Assembly (NCBI GenBank): GCA_026397515.1
Contig: JAPLUU010000006.1
Coordinates: 1 to 64,000, forward strand
DNA: 64,000 bases
Direction: 5' to 3'
Source of the DNA: a candidate division SR1 bacterium
GTDB lineage: Bacteria > Patescibacteriota > Gracilibacteria > Absconditabacterales > Absconditicoccaceae
Shown: piece after piece, positions 2,620-57,699 of the stretch
Numbering within the stretch: the stretch's first letter is position 1
Layout: each line of letters begins with the position of its first letter
Translations under genes and position numbers: made by a program
Notes under the pieces: generated by a model
Told to the model about the DNA's origin: nothing
Seen by the model: only the letters and a program-made list of their open reading frames with translations
The model's database searches: none

Positions 2620-3474
2620 TTATACAGCGATAGTGAATTCAATCTTTGGATGCGATTCATATCAGATAAGTTCGATATCTGTATATTTCCAATCCCAGAT
2701 AGAAGTGAAATTATTTATTTTAAGTTGTGGCAACATTTTCAATTCACGAGAGATCTGTTCTTGAGCACCATCAAAATGGTTCTCATAAATATGCACATCA
2801 CCAAGCGATCACATAAGAATACCAGGAACCATATTGGATTCCTTCGCAAGAAGAAGAAGCAATAAAGCATAACTTGCGATATTATATGGTAATCATAGCA
2901 TAGTATCTACTGATCTTTGATTTCGTGTAAGGTTCAATACTTTTTCACCTTGATGATTCAAGGTAACAATCACTTGCCAAGAATAATGACATGGCGGTAA
3001 AGCCATCTGATTGAGTTCAGAAGGATTCCATGCATTGACGATCATACGTCTATCGAATGGATTAGTCTTTAATTTATCTACAACTTCTTTCAACTGGTCT
3101 ATATTTCACATCCAATCTCTCCATTGTACACCATAAATACGTCCAAGATCATCTTCTTCCATCATCTTCTGTTTAGTAGCTTCATCATTTCCATAAGGAA
3201 CTTTTTGAGGATTAGCTCGTTCATCCCGAATATGACAATTTCTCTCATGAAATTCTTTTTTAGAATACAATCATTTGATAAAACATTCAAGTTCCGCAGC
3301 GATATTTTTCATTCACATTTTTTTAGTCGTCAACAAGGGAAATCCATCAGCCATATCATGTCTGATAGACCGACACGCAATAGCATGAGTACTTACACCA
3401 GTCCTATTTTCCTTTTTTGGAGCTTTGAGAATCTCTCTGACAAGATTAGCATACTGAAGATCGATGTGTTCCAT
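2620..3474 (-). CDS. Thymidylate synthase family protein (second copy, UGA-containing)
   Basis: A 284-aa ThyA-family protein. It reads NRTGVSTHAI, FPLLTTKKMG, GRIYGVQWRDW, FDRRMIVNAWNP, the canonical active-site PPCH, then NQRSVDTMLGLPYNIASYALL, SLGDVHIYENH and a C-terminus LIGYESHPKIEFTIAV. Several conserved Gly residues are UGA, so it is adapted to the local code. The Asn of PYN is present, which points to dUMP. The residue before the conserved Asp is Val (RSVD) where most synthases have Cys. Two synthases in tandem in a reduced genome is odd. One may be a replacement in progress or may make a modified pyrimidine. Only the central 66 residues are visible under the standard code. Confidence 0.9.
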
Positions 3475-3685: not shown

Positions 3686-6600
3686 ATGAATCAGAAAGAA
3701 TTGAACCAAAGTCTTAACGCATATTGGAAAGAACATAAAATTTTCCAAAAATCACTCGATCAGAGATCAGAAAAATTTCAATCTATCACCTATGATGGTC
3801 CTCCCTTTGCTTCAGGGACACCTCATTTTGGACATGGACTGGTAGGATCTATGAAAGATACTATCCTCAGATATAAAACTATGAAAGGATATAAAGTAAA
3901 CAGAGATCGATGACGAGATTGTCATGGTTTACCTGTTGAAAAATTTGTAGAAAAATTACTCGGTATTGATGGAAAAAAAGATATTGAAAATAAAATAGGA
4001 GTAGAAAAATTTGTAGAAGAATGTAGAAAATCAGTAAGTAACACCAGTGACGAATGGAGAATATTTGGTGATCTTATCGGAAGACGAGCAGATATGGATC
4101 ATGCATATTACACAATGAACCTAGATTTTATGGAATCCGTAATGCGAGTATTCCAAAATATGTACACACAAAATTTGGTCTATAAATGATTTAACGTGCA
4201 ATGGATGTGTCCAAGCTGTGCGACAACATTATCAAATTCTGAAGTAAACGAAGGATATAAAGACAGACAAGATCCGGCTATTACGATAAAGTTTCCACTC
4301 CATATAGACAATATAAATAACCAAATGAATGTAGATACAAATAAATATGAAACCACAAAAGATTGATTTATTCAAGTGGTAGATTGCATCATCAAACGTG
4401 ATGGAAAGATTTTTATGAATTATAGTGTAAAAGCACAAAAGTATGTCTGCCCAGGAGGAAAAGTAGATAAAGGAGATACGATGGAATGAACAATCAAAAA
4501 AGAAATATTGGAAGAATTAGGTGTTACGGTTACAAAGATAACAAAACTTTGAAGCATCAAAGAAATTTTACGCGGAACATTACGAAATCTTAATATGTTC
4601 GAGATAGAAATCGAAGGTGAACCAAAAATAATGGAACCAGAAAAATTACCACAAATGATTCGAGCAGAAATCATTGAATCAGATAATGCATTATGATTCG
4701 CCGTAAAAATAGAAAATACTATCATCGATGACGACATGGAAATTATGAGTCAATTTTATGACCTCTATCTATATCAAAAAAGGATTTTTGAAAAGACAAG
4801 CCCAGATGCACAATTTAGTGCATTAGCATGGACGACTACTCCATGGACATTACCAAGTAATATGTTTTTGGCTATAGGAAAACATATCCACTATACGACA
4901 GTATATGATATAGGAGCAAAAGAATATTTCGTTATTGCAGAAAATCTTTTGAAACAATATTATAGAAATACTGAAGAATATATTTTGATCAATACTATCC
5001 AATGAGAAGCTATGGCAGGATTAAAATATGAGCCATTATTTCAACATATCAACAAGAGTAAAATTGATAAAAAATATAAAGAACAGTTTTTCAAAATCAT
5101 AGCAGGAGAATTTGTGAGTACCGAAGATGGAACAGGTATCGTGCATATTGCACCAGCGTTCTGAGTAGAAGATTTTAATGCTGTTGCTCAGTTTTTACCA
5201 AGAGAAGATTCTAAGAATCGATTATTTTTACCAGTAAACGACTATGGTGAATTTACTGATGAAGTACCTGAATGGAGGGGAACCAGAGTATATGACGCCA
5301 ACAAAGATATCATTCAAAGACTCAAAGAAGAAGGAAAACTTATTGGACAAAAATCATACGAACATTCCTATCCACACTGCCGAAGATGTGATACGGCTTT
5401 GATTTCCAAAGCATTGACGAGTTGGTTTATCAAAGAACCATCACTCACACCAATCACGGTACCACATGCAGAAGAAATAGGATTTGTACCCGAGACCGTA
5501 AAAAAAAGATTTATCGATGTTATCAAAACTGCGCCAGATTGGAATCTTGCAAGAAATAGATATCGATGAGCTCCACTACCTATCTGGGAAAATACTAAAA
5601 AACCAGAGGATATTATCGTAGCAGGGACGTTAGATGAAATCTATCAATGAACAAGAACATGATCACAAAATATCACTAAAAACATCATTATCAGACATGG
5701 AGAGACCATATACAATGAAACACATACGCACGATAGTTATAGCAAAACAGAGCTCAACAAAAATGGACTCAAACAAGCAAAAGTAGTAAGTAAATATCTT
5801 GCTTCATTAAAAAAAGAAGACCGAATAATTATCATTACGCCATTGGCAAGATCGCTCCAAACCGTGCTTCCCTTTTTGGAAAAGAAATTTCCTGACAGCA
5901 TGTGAGAGATACAGAAAAAATATCAAGATATCCAAAAGATATATCAGGACCTTCGAAACGAGAAGAAAATCCAATGATATATTCAAGACGCTTCGACACA
6001 AAAACTCTTTGAAATCAACGAAAAACTTTATGTCGACTTCAGGACGACTGATCTTATTTTGCCGGAATTTCAAGATAAACAATTATCACCAGGATGAACG
6101 ACCAAACAACCGACAAATAAAAAACTTACTCCCGAATGAGAATCTATAGACGATGTTATCGCAAGATGTAGAGCATACACACTAGAAGTAAACCAAAAAT
6201 TTGCGACAAAAACTATCATAAGTATCACTCATAGAGATTCTGTTGTTTTGATAGAACAAACATTTAAAGATTTTGATTATCTAACAAAAAAACAAGAATA
6301 CAATCCAAACAACGGACAAATTGTTGTTCGTTATCGAGACAATAATAGAAAAATGGAAATGGATCTTCATAAACCATATGTAGACAGCTATCGATTTAAA
6401 AAATGAACGAAAGAATATCGCAGAATTCCAGAAGTAATGGATTGTTGGTTTGAATCAGGATCAATGCCATTTGGACAAGCTGGATATACCGACACCCATA
6501 GTACGAAACCACTCATCTATCCGGCTGATTTCATTATTGAAGGATTAGATCAAACAAGAGGTTGGTTTAGAGGAATGCATGTATGTGGGAACGCAGTCAT

Positions 6601-7804
6601 GAAAAAAAATTCATTTAATAATGTAATCATCAATGGTCTCGTACTTGCGGAAGACGGAAAAAAAATGTCAAAAAAATTAAATAATTATCCAGATCCAGAA
6701 CAATTATTTGGAAAGTATGGAACAGACGCATATAGATTATACCTCCTCTCTTCACCAGGTGTAAGAGCTGAAGCAGTAAGATTCTCAGAAAAATGAGTAG
6801 AACAAGTCTACAAAGATTTCACGGCTTCTATCATGAATGGATATAAATTTTTCGAAACCTATGCAAACGTAGATAAATGGACAACCGATAACACAGTACT
6901 TTACTTTATGAGACATGCCAAAGCAAATGGACAACTAATGGATCATCCCATAGCAGAAGAAGGAATCCAAGCGATGAAAGATACAAAATTTATTGAACAA
7001 ATATTGAGAATAAATCCAGATATCATTTATACGAGTCCATCAGTAAGAACAGTACAGACTACTGAAGAAGTAGTAAAAATTATGAAAGAATATAGAGGCA
7101 AAAAGGTAAAAATAAAGACAGACGAAAAATTACGATCAGGTGAAACGATGGATACCATAGGAGTATATAAAAAATTAATCAAGAAATGAGCAGGACAAAA
7201 TATTCTGATTATTTCCCACGATGTGAACTTCAATGAACTTCGACCAACACTTTACAACACACAAGCATCACTCAATAAACTCGAAGCAGTTAAGCTTCCT
7301 AGCTATAGTATTGATAACGAATTAGATAAACGAATACTTGCAGAGCTTCATAATTTAGGAATTCAAATCGAACAAGAAATGAATAAATACTTCCTTGATA
7401 CCAGTGCAAAACTAGTTCTAGGATTTATCGAAAAATTAAATAATCGATTTATCAGAAGATCTAGAAGAAGATTTCGAGCATCAGGAATGGATCAAGACAA
7501 ACGTTCAGCATTTAATACGTTATTTGAAGTATTACAGAGCTACATGAAAATATGTGCACCATTCGCACCGTTTGTGAGTGAACACATCTATCTTGAATTA
7601 CAAAAATTCACAACAAAAGGAAAAGTTGAAGGCGATTCAATACATCTCGAACACTTTCCACTCTATTCAGAGAAATATATCGACAAACAGCTTTTGGAAG
7701 AAATCAGTGTTGTCAGAAGAATAATTTCACTTGGACTCTTCATTAGATCGAAAAATAAAATGGCAGTCAAACAGCCCCTTTCAAAAATGCAGATAAGGTT
7801 ATAA
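3686..7804 (+). CDS. ileS: Isoleucyl-tRNA synthetase with embedded Nudix and two histidine-phosphatase domains
   Basis: Charges tRNA-Ile in the cytoplasm. The frame is a single 1372-codon ORF with UGA as Gly. Core landmarks: PHFGHG (HIGH motif, residues 46-51), [11 protein letters not shown], the editing-domain [11 protein letters not shown] (about 381), [13 protein letters not shown] (about 919), KMSKK (993-997) and YVRRSRRRF-like FIRRSRRRF. Three non-synthetase domains interrupt it in frame. Residues about 215-372 form a Nudix domain whose box GKVDKGD...KEILEELGV keeps the catalytic EE but has Asp and Lys at two consensus positions. Residues about 664-891 form a histidine phosphatase (RHG 670-672, LARSLQT, ITHRD with His849). 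Residues about 1069-1205 form a second one (RHA 1076-1078, SVRTVQT, SHD with His1178). Each lies at a loop between conserved synthetase blocks. The protein stops soon after VKQPLSK, so the usual C-terminal extension is missing. Inserts also use UGA, so they are not fresh. Confidence 0.95.
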
Positions 7805-9890: not shown

Positions 9891-10520
9891 ATGAGTAAAA
9901 ATATGACAAACATATACATCGTTAGACACGGACAAAACGAAGACAATGCTAATGGGATTCTCAATGGACATCGTGATTTACCACTCACCCAGCTAGGAAT
10001 CGATCAAGCAAAAGAGGTAGCACAATCAATCAAAGAATCAAACATACATATCGATAAAGCATATAGCTCACCATTACAAAGAGCATATATTACCGGAAAG
10101 ATAATCACTGATAATTTAGGGATAGATGCTCCTGAAAAAATGGATATATTGATTGAACGCGATTTTGGAATTATGACAGGAAAGCCAATGAAAGATATTG
10201 AAATACTCTGTTCACCAAACATAATAAAAGCAGATATTGTTACCTATTTTCTTTCGCCAGAATGAGCAGAGATATTTCCCCAATTGATTGAGAGAGCAAA
10301 AAAAGCTTTAGCATATATAGAAAAAAAGCATAACAACGAAAATATACTCATAGCTACTCATGGTGATTTTGGAAAAATGCTCTATGCTACATATTATAAT
10401 TTGGATCGAAAAGAAGTTTTAGTTAAATTCCATTTCGGTAATTCAGAAGTACTCTTACTTTCACCAGAAAACACAGCAGACCAAGCACATATATTTCACA
10501 CAAAGCAATATAATCATTAA
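9891..10520 (+). CDS. Histidine phosphatase family protein
   Basis: A 209-aa phosphoglycerate-mutase-like phosphatase. The catalytic RHG (RHGQNEDN, residues 11-13), GHRDLPLTQLG, SPLQRAY, the acid region ERDFGIMTG and the second catalytic His in IATHGDFGKML are all present. Such proteins remove phosphate from small metabolites or nucleotides through a phosphohistidine intermediate; the substrate here is unknown. Start at ATG 9891, with another in-frame ATG at 9903. It sits 14 bp after proS, likely cotranscribed, and ends at a strong terminator. Two domains of the same fold lie inside the nearby IleRS. Its last 170 bp plus the terminator are duplicated at 17882-18083. Confidence 0.88.
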
Positions 10521-10523
10521 AAG

Positions 10524-10547
10524 AAAAAAGCCCTTCCGGGCTTTTTT
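10524..10547. terminator. Terminator shared by the phosphatase gene and the convergent SLH gene
   Basis: An AAAAAAGCCC / GGGCTTTTTT hairpin with a TTCC loop works in both orientations. An almost identical copy lies at 18057-18083. Confidence 0.85.
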
Positions 10548-10612: not shown

Positions 10613-11920
10613 TTATTCCTGTGGATTTGCTATTCTATAAAACATAATCATCACGTTTTGTCTTTTTTCAAACATGAAAGGAGTATCTATTTTTTTCATA
10701 ATACCATTTTCTTTAAGAGCGTTAAGATGAGCTTCGTACCATTGGCCAGCTTGTCAGTTATAAGCTTCTCATCGAAGCAGTCTCGAAAGCATAGTACCAA
10801 ATTGTGCTCTAGTTAGAATCACGTCAGGAGAAAATGTAGAATTTGCATTTCACTTGCTATCCAATCACATGATACCAAGCTGGCAAGCAATCTTAGCATA
10901 ACGCTGATATTCAGTAGTCTCATCATTCATATCTAGGAAATTACATTTTTTCTTGGGATCGGGATTTTTTCCTAAGACATTAATAGCAAATTGCGAAATC
11001 ATTTTGGCTATATGTTTTCTAAGTACGAGTCACGAAGGATTTGCTTTCTGTATAGGACATTGCGTCGTGATTCCCATGTTATAAGAGTAACTAAATGCCT
11101 GAGTCACTTCTGCAGAATAAGGAGAATTAGTGACTGGACACGCTGCCTGCAAAGCAGGAGTATCTAGAATTTCTGGTTTATCTACCATGATACCACTAGT
11201 GACTAAACCACTAAATGTAGGAATATCAATTATAGATCACGTTCCTCAACCTCATCATCAACCACCTCAACCTCATCATCAACCACCTCAACCTCATCAT
11301 CAACCACCTCAACCACTATTTCATCAATTATTTCATCAATTATTTCAAGTACCAGATTCTACGATAGTAAGTCATGAACCAAAGAGTGATGCGATACCAC
11401 CACGAGAATCAAATATGTGACCAAATGTCTGTCATCCAGCAAACAACATAGTTTGCAGATATGTAGGCAAATAAGAATTTTCAATAAAATTATAATTTAC
11501 TCATGCAATAATATAATATGGCTGTCATGATAAAGTATGTAGGATACTACCATAGATCGCTTGTGTCGTTCCTCCACAATAAAATATTCATCACTGCAGA
11601 GTAAGATTATTGTACGAAGTATTATATGCTTTGAGTAATGTGAGGCTATCTTGATCCAGTGGCCACAATCTCTGTCATCTAGCCGCATTATAATAATATC
11701 ATCTGATCTGCTGTGTACATGTTTTTGTAATTCCATTGAGAATAAGTGTCTCTGAGACAGGTACGGTATCTCTAAAAAATATAGTCCCACCAAATTGATT
11801 CCCATGATAAATAAAGTGTAATGCAGAGGTTGGTAATCCATCAAGAGAAAAATTACTAGCATAACTGGAGCCAAGAAATAATGATAACACAATAACTAGT
11901 AATAAAATTATTTTTCTCAT
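10613..11920 (-). CDS. Secreted SLH-like protein with a polyglycine linker
   Basis: A 435-aa exported protein. The signal peptide is MRKIILLLVIVLSLFLGSSYA. An N-terminal globular part of about 200 residues ends in Gly/Asn repeats, then 24 consecutive Gly at residues 203-226, of which 13 are UGA codons. After the linker, a Cys-containing region with two S-layer-homology-like repeats follows (YSAEVTQAFSYSYNMGIT..., and STFSPDVILTRAQFGTML...). SLH repeats typically hold proteins to the cell-wall polymer. The gene starts 9 bp after the stop of the giant fibre gene, so the two form an operon, and it ends at the bidirectional terminator. It probably anchors or assembles surface material. The function of the N-terminal part is unknown. 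Confidence 0.82.
11246..11314 (-). repeat. 21-bp tandem repeat encoding polyglycine, about 3.3 copies
   Basis: The period is seven codons. Read on the minus strand, each unit is a mixture of GGT and TGA codons only (pattern GGT GGT TGA TGA TGA GGT). The repeat therefore encodes nothing but Gly in code 25, while under the standard code it would be a cluster of stops. On the plus strand it appears as an artefactual Pro-Gln-His repeat ORF. Confidence 0.9.
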
Positions 11921-11929
11921 ACAAGATTT

Positions 11930-14900
11930 TTATTGGACATAAAGATATCATCATATAATCATGGTAAGTGGATTAGTTACCCATACTGGATTGACCGTTT
12001 TCATTTCTATAAAATCTCAAGGGACAACAGGAATATTCATTGCAGTATTTCTAAAGTTTCTTTCAGCGGTAGCCAAGCTAAGCGTCTGTATAAGATAATC
12101 TGTAGTATCGTTTTTACGAACATACATTGACCATGCCTCAGCAGTTCAGGCAGTACCAGCATACGTAGATATACTAGCAGCAGTAATAGTACCTGTAGTC
12201 GTAATATACACTCTTCTCGTGAGAGCAACAGTATTTGGTGCAGCAGGAATTTGTCCAAAATAATTAGCCACACTATCCGCAGGACTTGCGGTAAGTGCCT
12301 GGACATAAATAGTATAGGCTGCTCAAGCTTGATAACGAGTTCATGCAGAATTCTGTAGATTATCTACCGTAATGGTTCATTGGACTGTTTGATTACCAGA
12401 AAGTAACATATAAAGTCATAAATTTCCAGTAATATATCACATCATTCTATGATCTCATCGTCCATAGGCAGAATCTCGATTTGTTATTTTAGTATTAGTA
12501 ATACTAGCAGCTGGATGAATAGCAAATATAGGATCGCTTTCAATGAAGCTATTTGCAATCAGATCCCAGTCTCCTGTCATAGTTACTCATACCTTACTCT
12601 TGTTAGCTATAAACATATTTCCCGTAATCATATTCAGCCCATTAAAATTACCAGCCTTACGAACGACATAATAATATCAGTTCAATGGGCTACTAGGCAA
12701 AGCACCAGCAGAATAATCCCAGGTTCACTGATATGCCATACCAGAGACAGCAAAGAGTTTACTATCTACTTCTGTCTTTGTATAGTAACTTGTTTTCTGT
12801 GTGGTTCGCGTTGGATCACTTTCTGCAGTCAAGAATCATCTTGCATTTATTTGTGTAGTAGTAGAATAGTTGGCTTTTTCACTAGTTCGGATAGGATCAC
12901 TTTCTCCTGTATAATATCATGCACTTCGAACTCATCCAGCTCTAGTTTGGACCGCGAAGCTAGAACCATTGAGACCCATTCTCCACGATCCATTGGTAGT
13001 AGGATCTCAGAGATAATATCGATTGGTCGATGGAATTTCAGCATCTCCAGCAACATCTAGAGCAGATGTGGGAGGATTGTTATTTCATACAGTCAACCAT
13101 CCATTACTACTAAGTCACATTTTATAAGCCATAGCGCCTCATGCAAGTGAATATCCAAATTGCAACATAGAATTTGGTGGATTTCAGGTAATGGGAAGAT
13201 TTTCCATTATCCACTGAGAGGTATTGGTAGCAGAAGATCATGCATTCCACACATTACCATTGAGCATCAGTCTTGGAGACATTTGGACAGGAACCGCTAA
13301 AGTGGCTGCCTGTGCATTAGTATTGACTAGACCATCTGTGGAAACTGCTGCTATATTTGATCTCGTAGAAGTAATGGTTGATGAACCCACGATCGATGTA
13401 GCAGATACTGCAGCCATAGTAGTAGCACCAACAACAGTGAGAGTAGATCAAATACTAAGTGTTCATCAGATAATAGCTGATGGCCTTATGTTCACATAGT
13501 TAGTGAGTGTAGTCAATCATGCAGTAGTAGTGTTGTAATATGGTAATGGAGTATTACTAGGTGTAAGTGAAGCTCACCAAGCAGCATAAGCACCAGTACC
13601 AGAAACAATACGTACTATCTTAGTGGTATGTGCTGTAGTTAAATTCTGTGTCACCCAAAATCTCTTCCATTGAGTAGTGAGATTCACCACTTTATCAGAT
13701 CATACTTGAGCATTACTTTCTACTCTTATAATAACAGATCATGTAACTGATTGCATCTTTAATCGTACTGCAAATGTCCGATTTCCTACCACAGCATTAG
13801 TAACAGATTGTGCAATATTACTCGTAGCTAGGGTACCAGCTGGGATATTTTCAGCGGTTGCTGTACCCATAGGATCTTGAGCAGAGTTTGCTGTTACTGC
13901 TCATATATTTGTTTTGACCCAAGATGCATTATCAAAGACTTCTGACTGAAGAAGGTAGTTTTGATGCTGTCCAACAGAGAAGAATGGATTTTGAAAGTTA
14001 CCTTCAAGCATGGATGTTCATCCATCTCCAGCACCGACAGACAATCATAATCATAATTGGAAAGCCGTATCTCCATTTATTCTATTATTGACCGTATCTA
14101 TACTCAATACATTTGTTGTTTTATCTGCCTCATTAAACTGGATAGCGGTAGCGCTATCTGTGACAGGATAAAAAGCACCACTATCTGTTAACCTCACATT
14201 ACTATTATCTTGGATAATCTTACCATTAGTTCCATGAAATCTTACTAACGCATTATCGGCTGATGAATCAGGACCCGTAATAAACCCAGAGATAGCAGCA
14301 GCTGTTAAATAACCAGCAGAAGTATGGTCTCCTCGTCCATAAGCAGCATCCCAATTTATTATTTTACCTGTAGTAACATTGGCCGCAGAGCTAGCTAAAT
14401 AAATAGGATCAGACTCAGTATATCAGGTAAGATAATTTTGATTATCTATTTGTGACCTCGTATAATAATTGTGTGCTGCCGCACTCCAGACAGGATCAGT
14501 CTCAGTATAGGAGGTAATATATCCCATATCTCTATGATCTCCTCGCGAATATGCAGCATCCCAATGGGAAACATCTCCAGAAGTAATACCAGCTGCTTCA
14601 CTGATGGCAAAGAGTGGATCAGTTTCTGTCTTGAGATAACCTGCATCAGCATGATTACCTCGACCATAGGCAGCATTCCAATGTCATATAGTCAATGTGC
14701 TTATAGCATGAGCAGGGCTTGCCAAAAATATTGGATCTGTCTCTGGTTGGTCCATTTCTATGAGATTCCAATCACCGGTTTCTGTTGCGCCAGAGACTAC
14801 TCTTTTCGCTATTATTTGATCGGGAGCTTCCATATGTAATCCACTAAATTCTACTCCAGTCTCATTGGTAATGATATACATATCTCCTGTATTTACATCA

Positions 14901-17644
14901 GAAGGCAATACTCAGGTAGAGTAATCCCATCAGCCTTTATAGGTCATAGCACCAACGACACTAGCTATTTTTTCGTTCACCTGTGTGGCAGTATAATAAC
15001 TAGACGCAAGAGTAGTCCAGATAGGGTCGGTTTCACCAGTTAAATATCCAATGAGTGAAACTGCAGTAATATATGGGTTACCAGACCCATCATAGATGGT
15101 ATGACCAGAAGTTACGTTAATATTTCCACTAACCGTCAATGCTTGTGTAGGGGAAGATGTACCGATACCAACACGTCAGTTATTTTTGATAATCATTCTT
15201 TCCAATGGTTCTGTTGTACCATCAAGAGAAGTACTAAATGATATCTTTCCCGGCATATCCAAGACATCGGGCGCCCCATCCACACCAAAAGTAATCCCAG
15301 CGGCCTGTCTAAATGTTCCACCATCATATCAAAATCCATATATTCCTCATAAAATATCCGTATTACTCACAGACAATTTATCACTCACTGTTCATTTAGA
15401 TTTAGCGAATACAATACTCATTTTTTCATCAGCGACTGGATCTGCTAGATAGTGAACCGTCGTATATTGATCATTATCATTAGATACTACCTCCATTTTA
15501 GTATCCGCTATGCCAGGAAGTTTTCCCATCTCATACTTTGTAGTCAATTCAGGGGGTAACAATCAGACTCTACTATTACTATCTATCGTAAACATTGGAC
15601 TTACATCACCAGCACCAGCGTAGAGAGAAAACCTATTGACTCCAAGATTGGTCATCAGTTTTGCTGTTGGAGCATTACCTGCAAGAGAAGATAACGATAG
15701 TTTAATCCAGTATAAATTATGTCCATTAATAGTTCTTTTTTCCCACGTAGGTTTCATAGATTCAATAGTCCAACCAATGTTTCCATCTTGTTTAAATTTA
15801 TCTGTCTTGTCTGTCAATCAAACAGCGTCTCACCATCCTCATCAAGTTTTGGAATATTTTACTTGTAAAGTTCCAGGTGTTCAGGCAGGAGTCTCTATAT
15901 CTATATAAATTGATCTTCGAGGATATTCCTTACCACATAAAAAAGCATCTCCTGGTCAATTAACGAGTACAAAAGGATCTCAAGCAGAAGTATAAGCATT
16001 AGCAGTTTCATCATAATAAGTATCACCATCATATCTTGCTGCATAATCAAAATATTGTGGATAGAGAGTGAAAGCATCTAATGGCGTAGTACTTCATAAA
16101 AGTGTAGGATTATTAATACCGACTCTACCTGCGGCAGAGATAGTTATAACATCCCTTTTGGAGTTTCCATTTGCAAAATATAATTTGTCTCCATCTTCAC
16201 CACTAGCAGTATACATCGCCCATTTATAATCCTCACTAGTAGATCATCCTCAAATTTGAAATCATTTCTCTACAGTATCGGGCCCATCAATAGTAATATA
16301 ATTAGAATAGAAATCATCGGTATTGGCAGACCGCACATACAGAGGATATGTTTCATTAACTCCTCATATGTTGAGATATTTATTGATAAAAACATTACCC
16401 GTATTGGTATTGATAATATCAGATCAATGTTTGGTCCATGAAACATTAGCAGTAGTAATATATCCAGATGGATTAGTAATCGGATAATAATCGCCACTAT
16501 GAGCAAGGAATTCAGGATCCGTTTCCGTATATCAGGTCAAAAAATTAAATGCATTAATCTGAGATTTCGTATAGTATCTATCATCATGCGTATGGTTTGC
16601 AAAGTCCAAACCACTCAGCAAACTATCTACTTGAAACGTAGTATAATAATTTGATTTATCGCTAAGCCAAGTAGGATCAGTTTCTACAAAATTAGTCAAA
16701 TATCACTTTGCATCTATTTCACCTGTAGTATAATAATTATTTTTTTCTGCATTCCACATCGGATCTGTTTCGCTATAATTGGTTAAATACCCTTTCGCAT
16801 TTATCTCGTTAATCGTGTAGTAGTTACTTTTTTCCGTGTTTCGGATCGGATCTGTTTCTGTCTTGAGATACCCAGCAAGAGAATGATCACCTCGCGAATA
16901 TGACGTATCCCAATGAGAAAGCTGAGTAGAACTAATACCTGCAGCGACACTCGCAGCAAAGACCGGATCTACTTCTGGATTATTTACATTTCTGATCACA
17001 TCTCGATCATTCATTGATGTCACACCAGAAAGATTCCTGTTAGCGATAATCATATCTCAAGCATACAAGACAAGTCAATTGAAATCTCACGAGACAGAGA
17101 TCTTATAGAAATCTCCAAGAATAATATCCATGGGCAAGTCTCCCGTAGAATATTCCCAGACTCCTTTGTAAGTCAGACCTCAAGCAAAACCAGCCAGTAG
17201 ATTATCCACGTCCGTTTTAGTATAATAAGCTAATTTATCTATATTCCAAACTGGATCAGTCTCTCCTGTTAGATATCACATAGCTCTATGATCACCTCGC
17301 AAATATGCAGTATTTCGATTATAAATTTGATTACTCGTAATGCCTGCGGCGACACTTGCAGAAAATATTGGATCACTTTCAGACGTGATGAAGGAGTGGC
17401 CTAAACCATTTTTAAGTGGCGCATAGACAACTACATTTCCTCCAGAGTTAATATCCATAATTGGAGTTCCTGTATCATTTCCATCGCTAGTAACGAGGAT
17501 CCTTTGGATCACTTGCAAAGCACTAGAGATACTATCTGGGATCGTAATACTAGCATTGGTAAAAAATCCAACAAGGAAAAAAGAGGGAACAAGTACTAAT
17601 AACAGATATTTTAATGAGGAGATTCTGTTCTTTTTTGATAACAT
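11930..17644 (-). CDS. Giant fibre-like repeat surface protein
   Basis: A 1904-aa protein in one frame with UGA as Gly. It starts with a basic N-terminus and one hydrophobic segment (LLLVLVPSFFLVGFF), a signal anchor or signal peptide. The body carries at least fifteen copies of an ETDPxW/F motif, usually as GYLT..TETDP.W...K.NYYT..Q.D, and several copies of HWDAAYSRGDH..AGYL. These are hallmarks of phage-tail-fibre-like adhesins also found in bacterial surface proteins. The last 120 residues (ALTASPADS..., YAGTAGTAEAWSMYVRKND, GDFIEMKTVNP) resemble a phage-type receptor-binding head. No S74 endosialidase chaperone motif was seen. It is probably trimeric and involved in attachment to a host or surface (inference). 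It is cotranscribed with the SLH-like gene. Confidence 0.85.
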
Positions 17645-17881: not shown

Positions 17882-18055
17882 CATAGCTACACATGGTGAT
17901 TTTGGAAAAATGTTATATGCTGCATAGTATAATTTAGATCGAAAAGAAGTTTTAGTTAAATTTCATTTCGGCAATTCAGAAGTACTCTTACTTTCACCAG
18001 AAACAACAGCAGACCAAGTACATATATTTCACACGAAGCAATATAATCACTAATA
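17882..18055 (+). pseudogene. Duplicated 3' end of the histidine phosphatase gene
   Basis: From 'catagctac' to the TAA this matches the last 58 codons of the gene at 9891-10520 (IATHGDFGKMLYA...HTKQYNH) with a small number of substitutions. There is no start, and a TAG replaces a Tyr codon, so it cannot be expressed as protein. The copy continues into the same terminator hairpin. Confidence 0.88.
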
Positions 18056-18056
18056 T

Positions 18057-18083
18057 AAAAAAGCCCTTCCGGGCTTTTTTTTG
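18057..18083. terminator. Bidirectional terminator, copy of the one at 10524
   Basis: The AAAAAAGCCC / GGGCTTTTTTTT hairpin with a TTCC loop lies 15 bp after the minus-strand typA stop and can terminate it. It came along with the pseudogene fragment. Confidence 0.8.
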
Positions 18084-47983: not shown

Positions 47984-50857
47984 ATGAAGAAATATTTCTG
48001 AATACTATTATCACTGATTTGACTGCTTTGAACGTCGGTATTTGCTACCTACGAAGATTTTTCTAATCAACTACAAACAATGTGAGTGGATGTACAAAAA
48101 ATAGAAACACAAGATAGTATATCACGTTATGAACTTTCAAGATTATTAAATAGTGTAGAATGTAAGGATTGTATACACCCGAATACAGATATGCTAACCA
48201 AATATGTAGAAAATTTTCGGGCAGGATTTACCAAAACACCAGGCAAAGATTTTGCAGATATCACCTTCTGATGAGGAATATCCGATAATATATCTTATTA
48301 TTACTGTGTAGCGTATGTAGGAGACAATACCTATATGAGATGATATCCTAAGGCGACAAGCCCCGTCTGTGGCGGACAATTTTGTGGAATAAAAATGACA
48401 ACGACAGCAGAATTTATCCAAGTAGTGATAAATATCTTAGCAAAATATATGTACAAAGATATTAGTCTTAACCGAAAAGAAGTAAGTACACGAGTAAGTA
48501 AATTAAAAGTAGATAGTTATGAAGCAAAAAACTTCAATAGTGATAACATCAAAATGATTACCGAAAAAAGTAAAAGCTGTGAAAATATATGCGCATTACA
48601 AAACAAAGATGAAGTAAATCTTTATCTAAAATATTGTATGTTTAATATAGGGAAATGTACCATGCAAGAAGTCGGTAAAATAAAACAATGAACTTGGCCA
48701 GTTGCAGAGCTAAATCTGCTCTATAGTCAAAGCATCATCGATATTAGTCAAAATCAACGAGCTGATACGGCAAAAAACATTGATGGAAAATCAGTATTGG
48801 AAACATTATATAAACTCAACGGGAAAGTAAATTGTGCGTTTAATAATGACTATGATTGCGATGGTATAGATAACGCAAAAGATAGTTGTCCAACGACATA
48901 TAATCCCACGCAAAAAGACACGGACAAAGATGGAATTTGAGATGTCTGTGATGATGATATCGACAATGACGGTAGTAAAAATCCAATAGGAATAGTTGAT
49001 GAAGAAGGAAAAATAGATATTTCAAAATGGACCAAAAATATGGATAATTGTTTATTCGTAGTAAATACAGGACAAGAAGATAGTAAAAAAAACGGTATCG
49101 GAGATGCTTGTCAAAATAAAGGGAATCAGATAGGTCTCTATATTAGTATAGATAAAATAGAATGAAGTGCTCCTCTGACAACAACATTCACTGCGATGAG
49201 TAATGGGAATGTAAATGAAGTACAACGAGATTTTGGTGATGGAATACAAGGGAAATGAACACCTATCACGCATACATTTCTTACACCAGGCATGTATAAC
49301 ATACAAGCAATAGCACAAGGAGACAGTAGTGATGCCAAAGCACAAGTCATCGTTATTATATGAGGACAAAATGGAGACGATAAAGCATTACAAACCAGAG
49401 CAAGTATGATAGGAGGAAAGTGAGATACAGAAAGTTTACTTTCGACCTCATTATTAGGAAAATTTGACGAGATTGAATGGGTATTTTCCAAAGAAAATAT
49501 CAGCTCCAAAAAAGCAGCCGGAGAAAGTTTCAAAAAAATATTTAAAGAATCAGGAGAAAATCCAGTATTAGTCAAAGGATATAGCAATGGAGCGTTGGCT
49601 GGAGTAAGCTACTTCACTATAGGAATCAATGAGTGAAAATGAGCAATACTCAAAACCAATACAGCAAGTGCAGAAATTAAAGATAAAATACTTTTTGATA
49701 CCAAGACATATAATATCATACAAGACGATATATTAGGGGTAGATCGAGATTTTGGCGATGGAACAAAACAAAGTAATACCACACTCACACTAGAATACAC
49801 ATATACACAACCAGGTAAAAAAGTAATTACACAAATCATAACACTTACCGATGGGAAGAAATTGACGAATATGCTTACCATGAATATAACAGACAAAACA
49901 TTATTATCATCATACGCGTTACTTATGACACCATCTACACTAATAGCAAACATAGGACAAAAAATAAATTTTTCCACACACATCATGGGTAAAATGATTA
50001 ATACACCAATCACGCAGATAATGGAATTCTCAGACGGCGTAACACAACAAAAACCATGATCAGAAAAAATGCCAAGTTTATTTATTCATTCCTATCAAAA
50101 AAACTGAATACTGACCCCTCAAGACAGTATGTATATCAATCAATGTTCTTATCTTAAAAATCAAGCAACTATTGTTATCAACGGAACAGATGCTTGTCTA
50201 GATGCAAAGATACAATGAAATATGAAAGTCGCATATAAATGCGATCTCGATGGAGATGGAATACCTGATCTTTGTGATACCGATATCGATAATGATGGTA
50301 TACCAAATCTTCTCTGAATAATAAATTTTGAAAATAAAGATTGTTCCTACGAAAGTGATCCAAGTAAATCGAATGCTAACCTCAACCAACAAATATTGGG
50401 ACAACACTATCAATGAGTATGTTCACTCGACAATGCACCATTTAATATAAATCCAGATCAACTTGATCTCAACCAAGATGGAATAGGAGACGCACAAGCT
50501 GCTACACCAATATTGGGTAGCTGAGAAGCTCTTGATACAGATGGTGACGGAATAATTGACAGTCAAGATCTCTGTCCAACTATTCAAGAGACATGGAATG
50601 GAATTGACGATAGTGATGGATGTCCTGAAATAGGTCAAGAACTATGATGTAAACCACAAAGTGGTATAGCTCCTCTCTTAGGGATGACTAACGATACTAT
50701 CATTGTAAAACCAACGGAATGTAATCAATGTCCTTGTCAATTTTGAGATTTTGCAAATGATCTCACTAATAACGATCAAGTAAGAGCAATTTTACAGGAT
50801 AAAGAAAAAACAATCCAGTACAAATTTTCTTTACCATGGATTGTTGATTTTCAGTAA
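47984..50857 (+). CDS. Secreted TSP3/PKD calcium-binding protein
   Basis: A 957-aa exported protein with the signal peptide MKKYFGILLSLIGLLGTSVFA (several Gly as UGA). After an N-terminal region of about 280 residues with paired Cys (ECKDCIHP, PVCGGQFCG), it carries thrombospondin type 3 calcium-binding repeats: DYDCDGIDNAKDSCP and DTDKDGIGDVCDDDIDNDG (about 286-332), DLDGDGIPDLCDTDIDNDG (about 751-775), and DTDGDGIIDSQDLCP (about 850-870). Two PKD-like domains (RDFGDGIQGKG at about 408 and RDFGDGTKQSN at about 587) lie between. A Cys-rich CNQCPCQFGD segment is near the end. It is probably a cell-surface or secreted adhesion protein. The stop is 8 bp from the convergent ferredoxin. Confidence 0.87.
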
Positions 50858-56697: not shown

Positions 56698-56712
56698 ATG
56701 TTGTATATACAC

Positions 56713-57699
56713 ATGAAAATACATAGCCGCTTAGCTATTTCTGAAAAACATATCCTCATTGTTGGAAATCGATCCTACAAAAACCTAGGAGATGAGCTCA
56801 TTTTATTGTGAACAGTAAAATTACTAGTAGCAGAAGATAAAAAGATAACGATAGCAGCATATGATCCAGAATGGTTGAAAAAATTCTTCAGTCAGTTTAT
56901 TGATGTGAGTAAAATCACATTCGTTACAGAAATACCAAAATGATTTCGCACCCGAATAAAATACATTCGCCAAGGAAAAATGAAAGAATGGAAATTATAT
57001 AAAAAAGTCGATGCAGTAATTATCGGATGAGGAGAAATTATCACCGAAGAAAATAAAAACTCGTATCGATACCGATTAGTATCACTGCTCCCCTGTTTAA
57101 AAAAACCTCGTTACCTGATGGGGGGAATACAATTACCCAAAAAATTATTCAACAGATTTCTTTTCACGCGTATACTTAAAAGAACAAAACATATCTTTGC
57201 AAGAGATCATGAAACCGTTCACGAAATGAAAATATATGGATTTGATGATGTAGAATTTTTTATGGATACCTCATATTTTGCTTATGATTGGGAGAAAAAA
57301 TATAATGAAACAGAAAGAAAATATATAGTAATCAATCTTAATAAGAATGCAGAAAAATTTCTGCCAGAAATAATTCAGGATGTAAAAAAACTATATAATC
57401 AATGATATGAAATCATGTACATACCAGTCGCCAAATGAAAAAACGATTATTACAACGATATGAAATATGCACATAAGATACAAAGAGAAACAGAAATAAA
57501 AGATCAACGATTTACCATAGTAGATCGAGAAGAAGATTTTGATGGTTTTGTAAAAACAATTGCACAAGCACACATAGTAATCAGCAGCAGACTACATTTA
57601 TTTTTGATAGCAAGTTTCCTGGGGGTAGAAACCAAAGTCTATCCATACCAGAAAAAAATACTGAAAATGCAAAAAACACTTGAAGCGTTAGGCATCTAA
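56713..57699 (+). CDS. Polysaccharide pyruvyl transferase family protein
   Basis: A 328-aa protein related to CsaB/WcaK enzymes that transfer pyruvate from PEP to sugars of cell-wall or exopolysaccharides. Features: VGNRSYKNLGDELILLGTVKLL (N-terminal Gly-Asp-Glu motif), VDAVIIGGGEIITEEN, RYLMGGIQLPKKL, HIFARDHETVHEMKIYG and the C-terminal AQAHIVISSRLHLFLIASFLGVET, with the conserved SRLH. CsaB-type pyruvylation of wall polymer is the classical anchor for SLH domains, which fits the SLH-like protein at 10.6 kb. Start ATG at 56713. Confidence 0.85.

Follow-up and report, generated by a model that had tools for sequence, protein, structure and literature searches.

A probable MAT-like adhesive fibre and its SLH-domain partner in an Absconditabacterales genome

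The closest described counterparts of the protein considered here are the prey-binding MAT fibres of the predator Bdellovibrio bacteriovorus; within the literature searched, "mosaic adhesive trimer" is a term of Bdellovibrio papers only. In these fibres, a conserved beta-rich N-terminal domain of ~130 aa, which has no PDB structure, follows the signal peptide, the capping loop has the consensus V-G-G/N-x-x-x-P-x-x-x-L, and TNF-like tips, which bind or may bind sugars, are found on Bd2439 and Bd2734 (PMC10769870). Relatives in the Absconditicoccaceae live attached to other bacteria, and genome papers on Absconditabacteria have discussed host attachment in terms of type IV pili, giant surface proteins, and SLH proteins generally. 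The recoding of CGA and CGG as tryptophan in Absconditabacteria has already been published (PMC8629427).

Here we describe a locus in a window of 64,000 nucleotides, the whole stretch of DNA analysed, from a candidate division SR1 bacterium of this family. Our preferred reading, to which we give a probability of about 0.68, is that the locus encodes a MAT-like, probably homotrimeric adhesive fibre that is held on the cell wall by an SLH-domain partner and binds another cell, most likely a host. The features are collected in Table 1. G000 denotes the window's own genome, and G005, G006, and G008 are genomes of the same genus.

Table 1. Positions of the fibre and partner features, of the recurring gene pairs, and of associated genes (window coordinates unless a genome or locus is named).
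Feature	Location	Strand	Basis or remark
Fibre gene, 1904 aa	11930..17644	-	open frame, repeats, PHROG phrog_9729; code TGA=Gly, CGA/CGG=Trp
Signal peptide and N-terminal module, residues 1-79	17408..17644	-	alignments, profile search
ETDP / WNxAYxWGDH shaft repeats, block 1, residues 86-400	16445..17389	-	repeat counts, PHROG match
Shaft module, residues 399-705	15530..16450	-	two copies in G005 orthologue
Segment related to Bdellovibrio MAT fibres, residues 738-863, with VGIGTSSPTQAL	15056..15433	-	phmmer
Shaft repeats, block 2, residues 865-1123	14276..15052	-	repeat counts, PHROG match
Phage head spike fibre domain, residues 1225-1378	13511..13972	-	NCBIfam NF048003
MAT capping-loop consensus, residues 1519-1529	13058..13090	-	exact match, VGNNNPPTSAL
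Shaft repeats, block 3, residues 1577-1742	12419..12916	-	repeat counts
C-terminal jelly-roll head, residues 1774-1904	11933..12325	-	probable receptor-binding tip
Partner protein, 435 aa	10613..11920	-	signal peptide, beta-rich N-domain, Gly-rich linker, three-SLH domain
Partner N-domain, residues 20-187	11360..11863	-	candidate docking domain for fibre base; low-confidence fold model
Partner three-SLH domain, residues 269-434	10619..11116	-	fold comparison
Terminator-like hairpin 3' of partner gene	10524..10547	-	
Direct repeat copy 1	10349..10547		3' end of histidine phosphatase (gpm-like) gene and terminator
Direct repeat copy 2	17882..18080		truncated, broken gpm-like 3' end, upstream of fibre gene
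CsaB-like pyruvyl transferase	56698..57699	+	PF04230, TIGR03609
Fibre-partner pair	G000		gap 9 bp
Fibre-partner pair	G005 C16		gap 19 bp
Fibre-partner pair	G006 C4		gap 28 bp
Fibre-partner pair	G006 C7		gap 48 bp
Fibre-partner pair	G008 C62		gap 18 bp
Protein with T9SS sorting domain	L092 2244-3800	-	TIGR04183
Protein with T9SS sorting domain	L093 10429-11955	+	TIGR04183
Protein with T9SS sorting domain	L041 5435-6982	+	TIGR04183
Protein with T9SS sorting domain	L102 1067-2833	-	TIGR04183

The fibre gene, its code, and its shaft

The initial annotation had listed this open reading frame without its strand. The frame is real, but it lies on the minus strand and requires TGA to be read as glycine: under table 25, it opens with an ATG at 17644 and contains 62 internal TGA codons, while table 11 or the plus strand gives no long frame across the same interval. 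Its start matches that of an orthologue from the same genus. The gene also contains 16 CGA and 2 CGG codons, many of them at expected tryptophan positions. The second tryptophan of the WNxAYxWGDH repeat is encoded by CGA in 6 of 6 copies in the window's fibre; in G005, one contig has TGG three times and CGA twice at this position and the other has CGA in 11 of 11 copies, and a homologue from a Limnohabitans phage has TGG. The genome encodes tRNAs with anticodons TCG, CCG, and TCA. This column comparison, the published code, and the tRNAs indicate that CGA and CGG specify tryptophan, so that what looked like "RGDH" is really WGDH. The repeats first read as HWDAAYSRGDH exist, in six copies of W[ND]xxY.WG[DN]H (shuffle mean 0), but with an incorrect arginine, the true sequence being HWDAAYSWGDH. 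The estimate of at least fifteen ETDP-type repeats agrees with 14 strict E[ST]DP repeats (shuffle mean 0.01, maximum 1), or 15 when EVDP is counted.

In the proposed architecture, the N-terminal module would be the cell-proximal base. This module of ~75 aa is common to diverse fibres and was found by profile search in 21 of the 49 genomes of the order; the same profile had no match among the other genomes of the class that were tested. Phage-tail-fibre repeats and beta-helical modules would then build a long shaft. The PHROG tail fiber family phrog_9729 matches the whole fibre (E 1.7e-83), and part of the repeats in block 2 shows 57-67% identity to the tail fibres of phages of Synechococcus and Limnohabitans, which bears out the long shaft of phage-tail-like repeats proposed earlier. 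The spike fibre domain is recognised by NF048003 at E 1.4e-14 and 55 bits (cut-off 36).

The shaft also contains the link to Bdellovibrio. Residues 738-863 have as their top PDB sequence matches the MAT fibres Bd1334, Bd2439, and Bd2133 (phmmer; 8oml 1.2e-5, 8ol4 4.9e-5, 8on4 2.1e-4, 8ond 8.1e-4); these matches are short, and the motif they span is widespread among fibres of phage type. Besides the exact capping-loop match, a second capping-loop-like motif at residue 825 is a variant one residue longer than the MAT consensus.

Pfam assigned the fibre to no family, even at E 1, and found no YadA C-terminal anchor at E up to 1. An LPXTG-type C-terminal signal with its membrane helix is likewise lacking, and the protein terminates in the folded head (...GGYLYVQ). 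The signal peptide, the lack of matches to enzyme families, and the adhesive fold of the head fit the exported fibre that had been suggested, as opposed to an enzyme or an intracellular protein.

The C-terminal head and its likely target

The likeness of the terminal domain to phage receptor-binding heads, initially seen in the letters only, is supported by viral homologues and by fold matches of an AlphaFold2 model. A search of viral contigs with the head returned 37 loci with best-segment identities of 37-61%. These homologues belong to phage proteins written in the standard code, in which they take a C-terminal or near-C-terminal position, and one locus has portal and major head genes in its neighbourhood, as in a phage structural operon. 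Cultured phage records contained no match to the head, and its profile gave chance matches only among PDB sequences. In the bacterial genomes searched, it was found at only one Saccharibacteria locus and two SR1 loci. Within the order, it is present in only three genomes, and across these three carrier species it is homologous, not swapped. The model is a confident beta-sandwich (pLDDT 87.7) whose structural comparison is led by a cyanophage short tail fibre (Z 9.7), the phi812 central spike, and PRD1 P5, followed closely by the heads of TNF and C1q; a Caudovirales protein reaches a TM of 0.71, and the top Foldseek row is the exosporium protein ExsF. Because jelly-roll Z values of 8-10 are not exclusive, this comparison identifies the fold class and not the ligand.

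A TNF/C1q-like jelly-roll head, drawn from a pool shared with the tips of phage tail fibres, could serve as the distal binding tip, and the surface ligand that it would bind on a host or prey bacterium is most likely a glycan. Host attachment appears to be the most likely role of the fibre, since relatives in the family grow attached to other bacteria. Vampirococcus and Strigamonas are described as forming piles, and Absconditicoccaceae pile up on the host, so the fibre might mediate contact among the cells themselves, in sister-cell stacking or coat building, instead of host binding. Bacterial coat proteins also combine collagen with C1q-like heads, in keeping with the ExsF match. We consider this use improbable, given that the head family is found mainly in phage proteins and that tips vary among family members, as expected if ligands vary among hosts.

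The occurrence of the head in phages would also suit a receptor decoy, in which a surface-displayed phage-type head blocks phage receptors as a form of defence. This seems very unlikely: no phage of this organism with such a head has been identified, and a long shaft suits reach more than masking.

Absconditabacteria might recognise their hosts through a mobile cassette of fibre and anchor that swaps its binding heads with phages, a proposal that we regard as tentative and rather doubtful; the head tree is too poorly resolved to tell whether the donor was phage or bacterium. If it is true, the parts that determine which hosts a phage can infect would also determine the host choice of these epibionts.

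The SLH partner and the history of the pair

The partner gene lies downstream of the fibre gene on the same strand. Its SLH model matches SpaA-SLH (7sv5_B, VIA) at Z 15.2 over 154 residues, with the next unrelated row at Z 6.5, and the Pfam SLH profile scores 20.1 bits against a cut-off of 20.8. The SLH-like neighbour, 9 bp away in the same direction, is a genuine three-SLH protein. No minus-strand hairpin occurs between the two genes, and promoter-like sites at the locus are no commoner than in shuffled sequence. CsaB-type pyruvyl transferases make the wall polymer that SLH domains bind. The CsaB-like protein in the window exceeds the cut-off of PF04230 (E 3e-23) and matches TIGR03609 CsaB at E 8.2e-21 and 74.6 bits, under the equivalog cut-off of 213. 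SpaA-SLH binds pyruvylated ManNAc, and the partner, probably co-transcribed with the fibre, may grip a pyruvylated wall polymer through its own three-SLH domain.

The other end of the partner may provide the contact with the fibre, its N-domain holding the fibre base. Of the 49 genomes of the order, 32 encode this N-domain, in some cases next to fibres. An avidin-like barrel was considered as its fold and set aside, the matches being weak (Z about 6) and this part of the model of low confidence.

Same-strand pairs of fibre followed by partner occur at five loci in the genus with gaps of 9-48 bp, and the partners at these loci retain the N-domain besides the SLH domain. The fibre genes of G005 and one of those of G006 reach contig ends, and their halves are presumed to join. 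In G007, fibre and partner form a divergent pair. Of the 51 partner N-domains in the order, 6 have an N-module no more than 7 kb away (1.3 expected), and most N-module proteins have no adjoining partner. The link between fibre and partner is thus real but not obligatory: the anchor-and-fibre unit envisaged by the initial annotation recurs, and "complete" was too strong a word for it.

The paired fibres in the genus differ in shafts and tips, including collagen and YadA-head segments. In general, N-module proteins contain collagen, YadA-head repeats, or S74 chaperones, segments that are all found in proteins with three chains, and the window's fibre is probably trimeric as well. The window's genome alone encodes five N-module proteins with differing shafts and tips. 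The MAT fibres follow the same logic, a base that stays constant while shafts and tips vary.

In the window's own genome, N-module fibre genes also stand in tandem, three to four per array (L093 4720-10247 and L096 2338-10111, both on the plus strand), and include segments of collagen and YadA-head type; the arrays are flanked by ftsK-like and polyprenyl-synthase-like genes. Some proteins adjoining N-module fibres have a T9SS type A sorting domain at their C-terminal end (TIGR04183, above cut-off). This signal is familiar from Bacteroidota, and its occurrence in Absconditabacterales is unexpected.

The fibre gene has typA, gpm, proS, ileS, and a sortase gene as neighbours, and no phage genes were seen beside it. 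A prophage remnant or tailocin fibre, which the tail-fibre repeats, spike-fibre domain, and phage-type head might suggest, is disfavoured to the point of being the least probable reading, in view of these housekeeping neighbours, the Sec signal peptide, the bacterial N-module, the SLH partner, and the recurrence of the intact pair in other species.

Three features of its setting indicate that the pair moved or was inserted. In G003 and G009, typA and a gpm-like gene are convergent with a different small gene between them, a slot that fibre and partner fill in G000; the two copies of a 199-nt direct repeat, 92% identical, flank the pair; and the G005 and G006 orthologues are located elsewhere in their genomes.

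Elsewhere in the window, the isoleucyl-tRNA synthetase of 1372 aa (3686-7804, plus strand) contains a NUDIX domain and histidine-phosphatase sequence within the synthetase body according to Pfam, with a second phosphatase-like stretch at residues ~1085-1190 recognised by eye, and that of G006 is equally long (L190 5728-9846). Two divergent thymidylate synthase paralogues are adjacent at 1503-2492 and 2620-3474 (minus strand), and a surface-type protein of 957 aa with PKD and thrombospondin type 3 repeats is encoded at 47984-50857 (plus strand).

Comparison with known systems

The locus is a concrete candidate for recognising and gripping a host, with a putative base, shaft, head, and wall anchor. 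By shaft, capping loop, and tip, the fibre best fits a MAT-like protein and is a candidate member of the MAT superfamily. The presence of such fibres in an unrelated lineage of ultra-small cells would point to trimeric fibres of phage type as a recurrent solution in bacteria-feeding bacteria.

Like the MAT fibres (PMC10769870), the window's fibre combines a signal peptide and conserved N-terminal part with a long shaft that has beta-helical segments and the capping-loop motif; both families have diverse C-terminal tips, including TNF-like and S74 tips (S74 here in relatives), more than one member in a genome, sharing their N-terminus, and a bearer from a predatory or epibiotic group. It differs in its shorter N-terminal module, set apart from that of MAT by description, in the phage ETDP/WGDH repeats and collagen in the shafts of its family, in its dedicated SLH partner gene, and in the recoded genetic code of its bacterium.

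Phage tail fibres and receptor-binding proteins (phrog_9729; the cyanophage A-1(L) short tail fibre, 8ke9; the phi812 central spike, 9eul) share the repeat unit, the spike-fibre domain, and the head fold. Unlike these, the window's fibre is Sec-exported, lies outside any virion gene cluster, and is paired with a wall anchor. YadA-type trimeric adhesins have their head repeats in common with sister fibres of the family, whereas the window's fibre is without a C-terminal membrane anchor and has its head distally at the C-terminus. SLH-anchored proteins such as P. alvei SpaA and B. anthracis Sap resemble the locus in the three-SLH fold and in the CsaB-like enzyme in the genome, but here the SLH domain is carried by a separate partner and not by the fibre itself.
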